Assembly (NCBI GenBank): GCA_030950925.1
Contig: JAUZQO010000009.1
Coordinates: 62,001-126,000, forward strand
DNA length: 64,000 nucleotides
Source: Mariprofundaceae bacterium
Lineage (GTDB): Bacteria > Pseudomonadota > Zetaproteobacteria > Mariprofundales > Mariprofundaceae
Direction: 5' to 3'
A program made the position numbers and the translations under genes. Shown here piece after piece: positions 3,542-60,743 of the stretch. The notes beneath the pieces were generated by a model, which searched no databases, had not been told where the DNA came from, and saw only the letters and a list, made by a program, of their open reading frames with translations. Position 1 is the first letter of the stretch, and each line of letters begins with the position of its first letter.

Positions 3542-4755
3542 GTTGAACCACCTATTTCCGCTTTAATCATATGCCCCATTTTATCACGTTTGGTTTGTAA
3601 ATAACTGATGTTTTCTTCATGGGGAGCAACTTCAAGCTGCACACGTTCCACCACTTCAAGACCATAACCATCCAATGCGATGATTTTTTTTGGGTTGTTG
3701 GTCAATAAATCAAGTTTCCGTAACCCCAAATCACGCAAAATTTGCGCGCCAATGCCATAATCTCTTAAATCAGATTTAAATCCCAATTTTTCATTGGCTT
3801 CAACGGTATCATGCCCTGCATCTTGCAATTCATAGGCTTTGAGTTTGTTGAGTAAGCCAATGCCACGACCTTCTTGGCGCAAATATAAAATCACACCCTC
3901 ACCCGCTTCAGCCACTTGGCGCATCGCAGCATGCAGTTGTGAACCACAATCACAACGGCGTGAGGTGAACACATCACCTGTTAAACATTCAGAATGCACA
4001 CGCACCAAACAAGCTTTTTCAGGGCTTGGATTACCCATGACCAAGGCTACATGCTCGGCATCATCGACACGGTTGGTGTAACCCATCATGCGAAATTCGC
4101 CAAATTCTGTGGGTAAACGAACTTCAACTTCACGTTTGACCAAAGACTCATGCTTGAGTTGGTAACGAATGACATCCGCAATACAGCCAACTTTCAGCTT
4201 GTGTTTTTTAGCAAATACTTTGAGTTCAGGCATGCGTGACATGGTGCCGTCATCATTCATGATTTCACAAATCACGCCCGATGCTTTTAAGCCCGCCATA
4301 CGTGCCAAATCAATGGATGCTTCGGTGTGTCCTGCACGCACCAGCAACCCACCATCACGCCCAACCAAAGGAAAAACATGCCCTGGTGTATGGATATCAG
4401 CCTCGCTTGCATCGGTCGCAATGGCTGTGCGAATGGTATGCGCACGATCATAGGCTGAAATACCTGTCGTCACGCCTTCCGCAGCTTCAATAGAAACAGT
4501 GAAATTGGTTTTAAACTTGGCATTGGTGTTTGCAACCATCAGTGGAATATTGAGTTGTTCCGCTTGGGCTGGCTCCATGGCAAGGCAAATGAGACCACGA
4601 CCATGCGTTGCCATGAAATTAACCGCTTCGGGAGTCACCCATTCAGAAGCCATCACCAAATCGCCTTCATTCTCACGATCTTCATCATCAGCAAGAATAA
4701 TCATGCGACCCGCACGCAATTCTTCAATCAGTTCTTCACAACTGGCAAGACTCAT
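3538..4755 (-). CDS. ribBA: Bifunctional DHBP synthase / GTP cyclohydrolase II
   Basis: This is a fusion of the two entry enzymes of riboflavin synthesis. The N-terminal RibB half (about residues 1-200) makes 3,4-dihydroxy-2-butanone 4-phosphate and shows DDEDRENEGD and FMATHGRGLICLAM. The C-terminal RibA half opens GTP and shows the zinc cysteines in SECLTGDVFTSRRCDCGSQL and the segment LRQEGRGIGLLNKLKAYELQ. All expected active-site residues are present, so both activities should be retained. The 405-residue length is standard. It overlaps ribE and ribH by four bases each. Confidence 0.97.
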   Translation of the reverse strand: MSLASCEELIEELRAGRMIILADDEDRENEGDLVMASEWVTPEAVNFMATHGRGLICLAMEPAQAEQLNIPLMVANTNAKFKTNFTVSIEAAEGVTTGISAYDRAHTIRTAIATDASEADIHTPGHVFPLVGRDGGLLVRAGHTEASIDLARMAGLKASGVICEIMNDDGTMSRMPELKVFAKKHKLKVGCIADVIRYQLKHESLVKREVEVRLPTEFGEFRMMGYTNRVDDAEHVALVMGNPSPEKACLVRVHSECLTGDVFTSRRCDCGSQLHAAMRQVAEAGEGVILYLRQEGRGIGLLNKLKAYELQDAGHDTVEANEKLGFKSDLRDYGIGAQILRDLGLRKLDLLTNNPKKIIALDGYGLEVVERVQLEVAPHEENISYLQTKRDKMGHMIKAEIGGST

Positions 4756-56464: not shown

Positions 56465-58362
56465 GTACTGCACACAGCAGAGAAGCCGAGCTTCTCACCT
56501 TGGGTGTGTTGATGGCAGGCGTGGCAGCTTTGGCACTGTCTGATTTTGTCAGCCCAATTTATTGGAGTTTACCTGTGATAGCCGCTGTCTTGCGTGTTTG
56601 GCGGGGCAGTCGTTTTGCATTGAGTGAAATGCACGCCAGCTTTATTGGTTGGTTTGGTTTTTTATGGGTGGGTTTGGAGCTTATCTTAGGGCGAGCTTGG
56701 GTGGTTGCATTCACCGATTTTTTACTTATTTTGGCATTGGCAGTCACCATTGAAAGTGCCACACCCCGCAATCATTTGCATCGTATGCTCACAGGTCTTT
56801 TTCTGATGCTTGCAGGCGCAGTCTTAACGGATTCCGTGTTATATGCCATACCATTGGTGGCATTGATGTGGTTTATTTGGCGTGCAGCCAGTTGTCTTTA
56901 CGGACTCGAACAAGTGGGTGGAAATTTACCCATTCCCAGTGTTCGTCAAGATATGCAAAGCAGCAGCATCATGATCATCATCACGTTATCATTGTTTCTA
57001 TTGCTGCCTCGCTTTGATATTCAAAGTAAACTACAACCGACCCAGCCGCGCATGGCGACCACAGGCTTTTCAGATGAAGTGAAACTGGGTGATTTTGCCC
57101 GTGATTTGGATAGTACAGTGGTCATGCGTATTGAAAGTCTTGATGCTGATCGTCGTCATTTTAAACAGCAAATCATGAACCATTATTGGCGCGGCGTGGT
57201 ACTCAGTCAATATCAACATCATGCTTGGAAACAACGCTCAAGCCAAAAAACACGCACTTGGTTGGCTGAACAAGATGTAACCATGCACAAAATTCAGCCT
57301 AGATCCATACAGATTGCATTGTTTCGTGAGGCATCCGATCACCCTTATATCATGTTACCCAATGGCCTCACGCACATGAACCCCTTACATCGTGATAGCT
57401 TTCAAGATGATTTGGGACAATTCCATTTTACGCAGTCACCCAACCGCCGCTTACGCCTTGTGATGCAGCTTGCGCCACAAAACCATACGTCTGACATTCA
57501 AATTGCATCAGACATACCGCCGCAAGGGGATGAAAAAAGCCAACGTGTGCCGCAAGCGATTCAAGATTGGATAAAAGATAGGATTGCACCCAACACGCCA
57601 GCAAAACAAGCACTGCAACAACTCAATCAAACCTTGCATGGTTGGACATATGATTTACATGCTAAATTAGATCCAAAAGCACCGCTGGCTTCTTTTATTC
57701 AGATGCAGCGCGGGCATTGTGAACTTTATGCCAGTACATTGGCATTGGCGGCGCGTAGTCTTGGCATACCTGCGCGTATCGTGAACGGTTATTTTGGTGG
57801 TGAATGGAATGATACAGGACATTTTCTCATCATACGCCAACAACATGCCCATAGTTGGGTGGAAGTTTGGCTTAATGACCATTGGCAACGGATGGATCCC
57901 ACACCTGCATCCCGTTGGCAATTGACAAATATTCAATTTCCAGTTTGGGATCAAGTATGGGAAACCGTTAAATTAACGTGGTACCGTTATATTTTAGAAT
58001 TTCAAAATCAAGACCGTGAAGCTTTATTTAAAAGCCTTATCCATGGATTGAAAATTTTATTACCATGGTTGATTTTATGCTTGATTGGCGGTTTTGTGGT
58101 GTATCATCTCTATCAGAAGGTGTCGAAGTATCGCAAAACCATTCATCTTAACCGACACCAATATGTGATTGATGCATGGTTACTTCAACATGGTATAAAA
58201 CGTGAATCTTTTGAGCCTTTAAGTCGCATCGAAACCCCTCAACATATCAATCCCAAAAACTGGTCAGCATGGGTGCAGCGGTGGGAAAAAGATGTGTATC
58301 AGCAAAAGCCATTGCCTCGTATTCGATATCTAAAGAAACAGCTCAAAACACTCGAGTCTTAA
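56461..58362 (+). CDS. tgpA: TgpA-like membrane transglutaminase
   Basis: The 633-residue protein has five or six N-terminal membrane helices (to about residue 190) and a periplasmic transglutaminase-like domain. The complete catalytic triad is visible: Cys in QRGHCELYASTLALAARSLG, His in HAHSWVEVW and Asp in RMDPTPAS (about residues 420-480). A single helix near 545-565 and a cytoplasmic tail follow. Pseudomonas TgpA, of the same layout, is essential. It overlaps the DUF58 gene by four bases. Confidence 0.9.
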   Translation: MSTAHSREAELLTLGVLMAGVAALALSDFVSPIYWSLPVIAAVLRVWRGSRFALSEMHASFIGWFGFLWVGLELILGRAWVVAFTDFLLILALAVTIESATPRNHLHRMLTGLFLMLAGAVLTDSVLYAIPLVALMWFIWRAASCLYGLEQVGGNLPIPSVRQDMQSSSIMIIITLSLFLLLPRFDIQSKLQPTQPRMATTGFSDEVKLGDFARDLDSTVVMRIESLDADRRHFKQQIMNHYWRGVVLSQYQHHAWKQRSSQKTRTWLAEQDVTMHKIQPRSIQIALFREASDHPYIMLPNGLTHMNPLHRDSFQDDLGQFHFTQSPNRRLRLVMQLAPQNHTSDIQIASDIPPQGDEKSQRVPQAIQDWIKDRIAPNTPAKQALQQLNQTLHGWTYDLHAKLDPKAPLASFIQMQRGHCELYASTLALAARSLGIPARIVNGYFGGEWNDTGHFLIIRQQHAHSWVEVWLNDHWQRMDPTPASRWQLTNIQFPVWDQVWETVKLTWYRYILEFQNQDREALFKSLIHGLKILLPWLILCLIGGFVVYHLYQKVSKYRKTIHLNRHQYVIDAWLLQHGIKRESFEPLSRIETPQHINPKNWSAWVQRWEKDVYQQKPLPRIRYLKKQLKTLES

Positions 58363-58392
58363 ATGAGGGTACTGAGATCAGTGAAGGAAAGG

Positions 58393-59358
58393 TTAGGAAA
58401 AATCAAAAGGGTCTGAATAAATATCCGACATGGAAGCACCCGACATAAAACATTGTTTTTTGATGCTGTCCACTATTTGAGGATCACCACAGATATACAC
58501 ACGATAGCCTTTCAAATCAGGAAAATCAGTTCTGACAACACTTTGAATATCACCTTGCTGACCACCTTCAGGGGCATCACCATGTAACACACACGGGGTA
58601 TATGAAAGTGATTCATGTTCATTGGCTAAATTGCGTAGCTCATCGATGTAATACAAACCAGGTGTTGCCAAACTACCATGATAAACATGGATAGAACCCG
58701 TATGATTTTTTGCCAGAGCATCACGTATGACACCATATAACGGGGCTAAACCAGTACCTATGCCAATCATCAACAACGGTTGTTCTTGGTCACGATTGGT
58801 ATAAAAACAATCGCCTGTTGCGCCCATGATGCTTAAACTATCACCCACAGCGACCATATCATGCAAGTCATTGCTAACCAATCCACCAGGCACACGCTTA
58901 ATATGTAATTCTAAGTAATCTTCTGTTGGTAGGCTGGCTAAAGAGTAGCTACGAATGCTTGTGCCATCTTGCCCTTTGATGTTGATAAATTGCCCAGCCA
59001 TATAATCAATCTTGTGTTGTGGTTTCAAACGCAAACGAACCACTGATTCATTGAGCAATGATTTTTCCAAGACTTCAGCCAGCATCCAATCTTTGGATGA
59101 ATCATATAGGCTCACTTCTAAATCTTCTTCAGGCTTACAAATACACGCTAAAAAATGATGTTGTGCGACCAAGGTGTCTTTCAAACCTGTTTGGGCGACT
59201 TTCGGTGGTGTGCCTTGCACAGCTTTCATCATGCACGATTGACATACGCCACTTTGGCAAGCATTAGGAATGAAGACCTTATGCCGAAGAAGGCAAACAA
59301 GAACAGTTTCATCCTTTTCACAGGTGTAGCTCTCACCTTTATATGTAATCATCGCCAT
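58393..59358 (-). CDS. 2Fe-2S / FAD / NAD(P)H oxidoreductase
   Basis: The 321-residue electron-transfer protein is of the phenol-hydroxylase/benzoate-dioxygenase reductase type. The plant-type 2Fe-2S domain comes first (Cys34, Cys39, Cys42 in CQSGVCQSC and a fourth Cys near 72). The FAD domain follows with RSYSLAS, then the NAD(P) domain with IGIGTGLAPLYGVI and YICGDPQIV. It lies 28 bp below the decayed globin tail and in the same orientation as the intact globin, so it may reduce a globin. Other oxygenase partners are not present nearby. Own promoter likely, since a terminator separates it from the intact globin gene. Confidence 0.88.
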   Translation of the reverse strand: MAMITYKGESYTCEKDETVLVCLLRHKVFIPNACQSGVCQSCMMKAVQGTPPKVAQTGLKDTLVAQHHFLACICKPEEDLEVSLYDSSKDWMLAEVLEKSLLNESVVRLRLKPQHKIDYMAGQFINIKGQDGTSIRSYSLASLPTEDYLELHIKRVPGGLVSNDLHDMVAVGDSLSIMGATGDCFYTNRDQEQPLLMIGIGTGLAPLYGVIRDALAKNHTGSIHVYHGSLATPGLYYIDELRNLANEHESLSYTPCVLHGDAPEGGQQGDIQSVVRTDFPDLKGYRVYICGDPQIVDSIKKQCFMSGASMSDIYSDPFDFS

Positions 59359-59386
59359 CGCATATTCACCTTTTACACCTTGTTAT

Positions 59387-59464
59387 TTATTGGTTTAATA
59401 CATCATCCCGAACACTATCGGTAATCATCATAACTTCTTCAATTTTATCTTCACACACATTCAT
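59387..59464 (-). pseudogene. C-terminal remnant of a second truncated haemoglobin
   Basis: The minus strand reads MNVCEDKIEEVMMITDSVRD then DVLNQ and stop. It aligns without gaps to the end of the intact globin (NDKIQEVITIADSVRTDILN), 13 of 21 positions identical. Upstream it is cut off directly at the terminator hairpin of the intact globin gene. It is the tail of a tandem globin paralogue that was deleted, and it sits immediately before the reductase gene. The rest of the 300-bp gap (59503-59658) shows no gene. Confidence 0.75.
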
Positions 59465-59467
59465 TGT

Positions 59468-59502
59468 AAAAAAATACGACGGCTGAATAATCAACCGTCG
59501 TA
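59468..59502 (-). terminator. Intrinsic terminator of the truncated haemoglobin gene
   Basis: On the minus strand TACGACGG (59502-59495) pairs with CCGTCGTA (59482-59475), with extra inner pairs, followed by T7 (59474-59468). This is a classic Rho-independent terminator for the globin transcript. A second small GC stem (GCGGC-AAA-GCCGC, 59509-59521) lies just before it. Confidence 0.85.
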
Positions 59503-59658
59503 TCTACAGCGGCAAAGCCGCCTTAGCTACTCATTAAAACTCACCAGTGACGTTGGGAGAGGGGAAGGGGTACCAACTTCATGGTCAGCTTTATCAGTAG
59601 TATGAGATAGCAAAATAGGTACAGAAATACCTAAAATGCCAATAGAGTTATAAAAAAA

Positions 59659-60021
59659 TTACTTATTTAAAATGTCAGTACGAACACTATCTGCGATGGT
59701 AATCACTTCTTGAATTTTATCGTTACCCACACCCAACTCAGCTAAAGTGGAACGCAAATGTGCCAAAATATGTTCATAATGTGAATCGTTAAGACCCTTA
59801 TCTACCAAATGCTTATGACCTTCACGCATATCCAAACCCGTGTAATTGTTAGGTCCGCCAAAAACCATGGTTAAAAAAGCTTTTTGTTTGCCTGCTTGTT
59901 TCTCCATATCCACGCCTTCAAAGAAACTTGCAACATAGGCATCACTTAACACACGACGATAAAAAATATCTACAGCTGCATTGACCGATGCTTCTCCACC
60001 CAACTCTTCATATAAGCTCAT
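59659..60021 (-). CDS. Group I truncated haemoglobin
   Basis: The 120-residue 2-on-2 globin begins MSLYEELGGEASVNAAVDIFY. It has the group-I segments FFEGVDMEKQAGKQKAFLTM, FGGPNNYTGLDMREGHKHL with the proximal His, and the G/H helices ending ADSVRTDILNK. These proteins bind O2 and NO and often act as NO dioxygenases given a reductant. It has GAGGAG upstream of ATG 60021 and faces the NsrR-like gene across a 146-bp region with a good NsrR-like site. That points to NO-responsive control. Confidence 0.94.
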   Translation of the reverse strand: MSLYEELGGEASVNAAVDIFYRRVLSDAYVASFFEGVDMEKQAGKQKAFLTMVFGGPNNYTGLDMREGHKHLVDKGLNDSHYEHILAHLRSTLAELGVGNDKIQEVITIADSVRTDILNK

Positions 60022-60076
60022 ATCTAAACTCCTCTACGCGACTTTTCATATTTTGATTTTCAGCAAATACCTATAT

Positions 60077-60099
60077 AAGATGTATTTGAGATGCGTAAT
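60077..60099. promoter_or_regulatory. NsrR-like operator between globin and regulator genes
   Basis: AAGATGTATTT (60077-60087), one spacer base, then AGATGCGTAAT (60089-60099). The first half matches the recalled NsrR half-site consensus AAGATGYATTT fully, and the second half matches its complement at about 7 of 11 positions. A further half-site-like AAGATGTCAAA lies at 60115-60125. The location between divergent globin and regulator genes supports it. Confidence 0.65.
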
Positions 60100-60167
60100 A
60101 TGTGACTGAAAGATAAGATGTCAAATAAATATATGTTTAAATTCATGCGGCGTGTCATAGTACGCTC

Positions 60168-60623
60168 ATGCAACTGACCCTTTATACAGATTATTCACTT
60201 CGCGTACTGCTTTACCTTGCGACTCACCCAAAGCAGCGGGTCACAATTTCAGAGATTTCAGAGTATTTTGGTATATCTCGAAACCACTTGGTCAAAGTTG
60301 TGCATAACTTAGGAAAATTAGACCTGATTCATACCATTCGTGGTAAATCAGGGGGGCTTTTATTAGCCGTTCCACCTGAACATATCAATATTGCTGAAAC
60401 GGTTCAAAAGATTGAACCGCATATGAATTTATTGGAATGCTTTGATGATATGACCAACACTTGCCCTATCACCATGCAATGCTCCTTGAAAGGTGTGTTA
60501 TTTCAAGCTCGCACAGGTTTTATGGGCGTATTGGAAAATTACACATTGGCAGATATACTGCCCAAAGAAGCCCCTGTTTCTATAGCTGAAATACCTATTT
60601 CAAACATTCAACGGCGTGCATAG
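60168..60623 (+). CDS. nsrR: Rrf2-family NO-sensing repressor, NsrR-like
   Basis: The 151-residue Rrf2 protein begins MQLTLYTDYSLRVLLYLATH, which is the NsrR-type N-terminus. The winged-helix DNA-binding part includes ISEYFGISRNHLVKVVHNL. RGKSGGLLLA leads to three cysteines at 91, 99 and 105 that would ligate an Fe-S cluster. In NsrR, NO destroys this cluster and relieves repression. It is divergent from the truncated haemoglobin gene, with a matching site between. There is little Shine-Dalgarno sequence before ATG 60168. IscR-like function is less likely because no isc genes are nearby. Confidence 0.87.
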   Translation: MQLTLYTDYSLRVLLYLATHPKQRVTISEISEYFGISRNHLVKVVHNLGKLDLIHTIRGKSGGLLLAVPPEHINIAETVQKIEPHMNLLECFDDMTNTCPITMQCSLKGVLFQARTGFMGVLENYTLADILPKEAPVSIAEIPISNIQRRA

Positions 60624-60642
60624 CTGATTTAAAATACGTGGG

Positions 60643-60673
60643 GGAAATCCGCACAGGCGGATGATAGATTTCC
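60643..60673 (+). terminator. GC-rich hairpin downstream of nsrR
   Basis: ATCCGC-ACAG-GCGGAT, extended after a 5-base bulge by GGAA/TTCC-type pairs (60643-60673), lies 20 bp after the nsrR stop. There is no U-run, so it may be a transcript-stabilising or weak termination structure. The remainder of 60674-60743 is the leader of the next gene. Confidence 0.4.
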
Positions 60674-60743
60674 TGCTAACATGCCGCGCCAGTGAATGAC
60701 TATCTTCGTTATTCACCTTTAAATTTAATCTTAGAGAGCCTTT

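Follow-up and report, generated by a model that had tools for sequence, protein, structure and literature searches.

What separates an intact truncated globin gene from the reductase gene downstream of it in this Mariprofundaceae genome, and how did the end of a globin come to lie between them? The first-pass annotation of the 64-kb window (the whole stretch of DNA that was analyzed) had read the codons between a hairpin and the reductase gene as the tail of a tandem globin, most of which had been deleted. The features identified at the locus are as follows, in window coordinates.

58393..59358, minus strand: 2Fe-2S/FAD/NAD reductase, globin partner (Fer2, FAD_binding_6, NAD_binding_1)
59387..59464, minus strand: C-terminal tail of globin 2, ~23 codons plus stop (24.0 bits to the globin 2 profile)
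59468..59503, minus strand: intrinsic-terminator-like hairpin in the relic, found by folding (stem-loop 59474-59503; T7 59468-59474)
~59487..59550, minus strand: 5' fragment of the globin 2 haem domain (collinear DNA alignment to relatives L008, L009, L010 and L054)
59578..59640, minus strand: remnant of the globin 2 N-terminal transmembrane anchor, GILGISVPILLSHTTDKADHE, without a start codon (11.1 bits to the profile)
59659..60021, minus strand: globin 1, intact soluble group 1 truncated haemoglobin (PF01152, E 1.7e-18)
60077..60099, plus strand: predicted NsrR-box-like site between nsrR and globin 1 (1 mismatch to the consensus, AAGATGYATTTNARATGCRTNTT)
60168..60623, plus strand: divergent Rrf2-family regulator, NsrR-like (Rrf2, E 2.2e-33)

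With its adjacent globin and ferredoxin-type reductase, the locus resembles modules made up of NsrR, a truncated globin and a reductase. Globin 1 is a group 1 truncated haemoglobin: it carries a Bac_globin domain, and the solved structures nearest to it belong to cyanoglobins and further truncated haemoglobins of group 1. The reductase has the conserved cluster cysteines C34, C39, C42 and C74. The top NCBIfam match of the regulator, which has three cysteines, was NsrR at 129 bits, under the curated cut-off of 182. The NsrR-box-like site was the sole match within the window at 3 mismatches (0.06 expected), and an Rfam search of 58000-60700 gave no match. By analogy, the role of the module is likely NO detoxification by NO dioxygenation, given its resemblance to glbN-lpg2536 of Legionella pneumophila, a predicted NsrR-controlled operon of truncated globin and ferredoxin reductase for which NO oxidation has been proposed (PMC1274295; PMC3820574). 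Both systems have an NsrR-like regulator, a group 1 truncated globin and a ferredoxin-type reductase; unlike the Legionella pair, Zetaproteobacteria insert a membrane-anchored second globin, which in the window is a relic with a putative terminator inside it. On contig C22 of the window's own genome, a 299-residue frame (L002:1039-1935) encodes two domains in succession, Globin (PF00042) and truncated globin (PF01152).

In relatives from the genus, the family and the order, a divergent nsrR is followed by globin 1, globin 2 and the reductase, and this is the ancestral gene order. The tandem paralogue that the first-pass annotation had placed directly upstream of the reductase therefore existed and was lost, and the globin-globin-reductase loci that it had proposed to look for are present at all three ranks. 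It had missed that the lost globin was membrane-anchored. By our count, a second globin whose globin domain is preceded by an N-terminal hydrophobic helix (for example MEQQLTAFIYPLIMFFILGVVVPVLLSNAADKA) is kept in 34 of the 44 class members that have these globins, and the peak hydropathy of these helices over a 19-residue span is mostly >2.5. Among 249 genomes sampled evenly across the phylum, none outside the Zetaproteobacteria gave an anchored match at E 1e-25. Outside the class, several other phyla included, the usual arrangement is a single globin immediately upstream of the reductase (Methylococcus, Myxococcus, Acidobacteria, Hydrogenedentota and others), so that the pairing of the reductase with a neighbouring globin is old, as had been supposed from the window, and the Zetaproteobacteria add the anchored one. 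The anchored second globin is a Zetaproteobacterial variant of a known module, at a class-wide locus in marine iron oxidisers; searches of openly licensed literature turned up neither a membrane-anchored truncated haemoglobin of bacteria nor the present locus. In two loci (L135:762-1628 and L136:669-1538) one reading frame joins the anchored globin to a further truncated globin; the product is a double globin of 288-289 aa with a membrane anchor, encoded beside the soluble globin, and L077 appears to be likewise.

Mariprofundus ferrooxydans PV-1 (L066) and its relatives share with the window the gene order, the regulator, the soluble globin 1 and the reductase, but their globin 2 is intact and anchored and is followed by a terminator-like hairpin of its own. 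Three trHbN genes have been reported in PV-1, and for Sideroxydans the authors preferred a link to a terminal oxidase over NO dioxygenation (PMC3770913). Of 21 Zetaproteobacterial loci with two or three globins, 18 have a terminator-like hairpin between the last globin and the reductase, versus 1 of 44 listed loci outside the class; these are our own counts, made with a lenient detector of our own without shuffle control. The hairpins that follow globin 2 in most two-globin Zetaproteobacteria are unrelated to the one in the window relic. Those after the intact globin 2 of the genus relatives L057-L059 and L061 have C-rich loops.

With respect to the window itself, 59387-59464 on the minus strand translates to MNVCEDKIEEVMMITDSVRDDVLNQ and a stop codon. 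Against a profile of the relatives' second globins this tail scored 24.0 bits, compared with a maximum of 5.8 bits among 2000 dinucleotide shuffles of the same region read in three forward frames, and the homology that had been proposed thus stands far above shuffled sequence. The open stretch directly after globin 1 is the anchor remnant, whose profile score exceeded 2000 of 2000 shuffles. Both ends of the interval are therefore homologous to globin 2, and relatives have the intact gene in the same place. Between them lies a middle piece of 89 bases which, as DNA, gave its best globin 2 alignment at the collinear place in L008, L009, L010 and L054, with a mean alignment score over eight relatives above that of 300 of 300 shuffles. 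It was placed by local DNA alignment; alignment of the whole region as DNA misplaced it. As protein only, the signal was weak (3.4-4.4 bits, a level reached by ~1% of shuffles), and the count of in-place alignments was equalled by 5 of 500 shuffles. The 5' fragment that it contains, which is well supported as collinear, reads SL, a short insert, N-E-stop-L (AAT GAG TAG CTA), one extra base and then GGFAAVDTTVDY, where intact genes read SLYDQLGGEAAIDAAVDIFY, so that the relic bears a nonsense codon and a +1 frameshift. The start is absent and most of the globin core between the 5' fragment and the tail is deleted: an intact globin 2 has 162-175 aa, compared with 272 nt from the stop of globin 1 to the stop of the tail. 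It is nearly certain that 59387-59658 (minus strand) is a single collinear and decayed remnant of a gene for a membrane-anchored group 1 truncated haemoglobin. Its history was not the single clean deletion that had been envisaged, for pieces of the anchor and of the 5' globin domain survive together with the tail, and the lesions include a premature stop, a shift of frame and internal deletions. An origin of the sequence between globin 1 and the reductase from a genomic repeat or a mobile element was ruled out, since the interval occurs just once in the genome.

Globin 2 is also lost in two sister species. NORP31 (G005) has the same hairpin and tail junctions as the window, nearly base for base, and its counterpart of the anchor remnant is frameshifted. 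G010 (M1290) has LGGIAAIN followed by a drifted tail, KITDLIAMGDSIRRNLSIS, with its stop 31 bp before the reductase, the same spacing as in the window. Trees of both the reductase and globin 1 place the three species in one clade with full bootstrap support, and one loss accordingly explains all three. Over 59577-59658, the anchor remnant, the window and NORP31 differ at 12 of 80 aligned positions, with the flanking nsrR, globin 1 and hairpin regions near-identical; this excess may reflect either a recombination tract or a local cluster of mutations. In G010, the contig-edge sequence before the relic, upstream of the reductase (L007:2463-2695), resembles a short dispersed repeat, ATTCCCG...GGAATGACGG.

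The hairpin had been taken for the terminator of the surviving globin, with the break falling exactly at it. It has the form of an intrinsic terminator, a stable stem of 13-14 pairs with a 4-base loop (-21.4 kcal/mol) followed by the U-tract, and folding of 59462-59530 gave -32.7 kcal/mol with a z of -6.9. It was found by our own lenient detector and is absent from the list of a simple terminator scan, which may be due to the stem's ability to continue into the T-run. The 3' break does adjoin the T-run, as had been stated, but the sequence beyond the break, with the hairpin in it, seems to derive from a globin as well, which had gone unnoticed. The hairpin sits inside the globin 2 relic and aligns to the globin 2 codons D-A-A-V-D-I-F-Y-R-R-V, and in intact genes of the genus the same codons fold, in the same register, into a weaker hairpin (L010 -15.0, L008 -13.7 and L009 -9.1 kcal/mol). 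The placement of the hairpin within these codons is well supported. The surviving globin did not take the place of the lost one: it is globin 1, which has stayed where it was, next to nsrR. Judged from these alignments, the hairpin probably did not arrive with the surviving globin and would instead have grown from the dead gene's own codons.

We give a probability of about 0.8 to the reading that the interval is a relic of the anchored globin 2 with a terminator derived from its own latent coding hairpin. Globin 2 would once have stood between the soluble globin 1 and the reductase of a Zetaproteobacterial NsrR-type module, and in the ancestor of the window species, NORP31 and G010 its reading frame would have been broken and its start and most of the haem-binding core lost. 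In the window species and NORP31, a few changes may then have turned the latent hairpin into a perfect one, which would have come to lie beside a T-run; the two together would make up a newly arisen intrinsic terminator separating globin 1 from the reductase. The T-run possibly stems from the Phe-Phe codons of V-F-F-E-G, which in relatives lie ~25 bases further on from the hairpin codons and may have been moved in by a deletion. In the window's clade the spacer between tail and reductase is just 31 bp and holds no terminator, so the relic hairpin may have taken over that place. On the sequence comparison, the chances are about even that a working terminator was born inside the dying gene in this way, by perfection of the coding hairpin and a deletion that put the T-run alongside, and then took the place between globin and reductase. 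Actual termination at the hairpin and separate expression of the reductase would follow, and tuning of globin against reductase is a guess. Conservation carries no weight as evidence of terminator function, because both genomes with the hairpin are near-identical here. Against the reading as a whole stand the weak protein signal of the middle fragment, the absence of the hairpin from G010 and its absence from the list of the simple scan.

The alternative that survives best accepts the anchor and the tail as globin 2 relics and takes the hairpin for an unrelated insertion, or for a structure of independent origin with a chance likeness to globin codons. The protein signal of the middle fragment is weak and is equalled by a few shuffles, and several bases of the coding hairpin would have to change to give a perfect stem, both of which lend this alternative some weight. 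It is nevertheless unlikely, as the DNA aligns at the collinear place in four relatives, intact genes fold a hairpin in the same codons and register, the sequence has no second copy in the genome, and G010 has LGGIAAIN in the same place.

Somewhat less probable still is that the tail was kept for an acquired function, for example as a leader or as the promoter region of the reductase. It does have an ATG and a stop and lies 31 bp ahead of the reductase gene, and at 59470 a promoter-like TTTACA-17-TAAAAT begins. However, promoter-like sites numbered 5 against 6.2 expected from shuffles, the tail of G010 has drifted, and the window and NORP31 are too alike here to reveal constraint.

Whether the tail came from globin 1 or globin 2 could not be settled by its residues, and assignment on that basis failed. 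The match of 13 of 21 residues to the C-terminus of globin 1 that had been noted was about right (56% identity over 25 residues; 14 of the last 23 identical by direct count), and the match to globin 2 of genus relatives is nearly equal, at 13-15 of 23. This is partly because the globin domains of both copies cluster by lineage rather than by copy in the tree, which suggests gene conversion or repeated duplication. The tail was assigned to globin 2 by its position in the locus and the anchor fragment upstream. If the 3' end of globin 1 had been partly duplicated in tandem, the 14 of 23 matches would be accounted for, but this is very improbable: the globin 2-specific anchor fragment, collinear and just upstream, nearly refutes it, and relatives carry globin 2 exactly here. 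Least credible is a collapse of two similar globins into one during assembly, for although the genus genomes are mostly fragmented metagenome assemblies and the contigs of G010 are interrupted around here, the hairpin and tail junctions recur in two separate genomes and a third retains a diverged tail with unchanged spacing.

The relic of globin 2 is one of at least two losses of the anchored globin. Mariprofundus M1282 (L063), like the window, is down to one globin at the locus, but there the single gene (3609-4001) is a clean chimera of globins 1 and 2, unlike the window's copy, which decayed through nonsense, frameshift and internal deletion. The 5' part of the chimera matches globin 1 at 117 of 120 nt, and its 3' end and spacer match globin 2 of the nearest relative at 93 of 95 nt; this species lost the anchored globin independently, by an unequal crossover that fused globins 1 and 2. 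Since the anchored globin has been lost at least two times, by different routes, its role in the handling of NO or O2 is open to test by comparing species with and without it. The locus also offers a clear view of how coding sequence can give rise to a regulatory RNA structure, as one set of codons can be followed from its intact form in relatives to the perfected, putative terminator of the relic.
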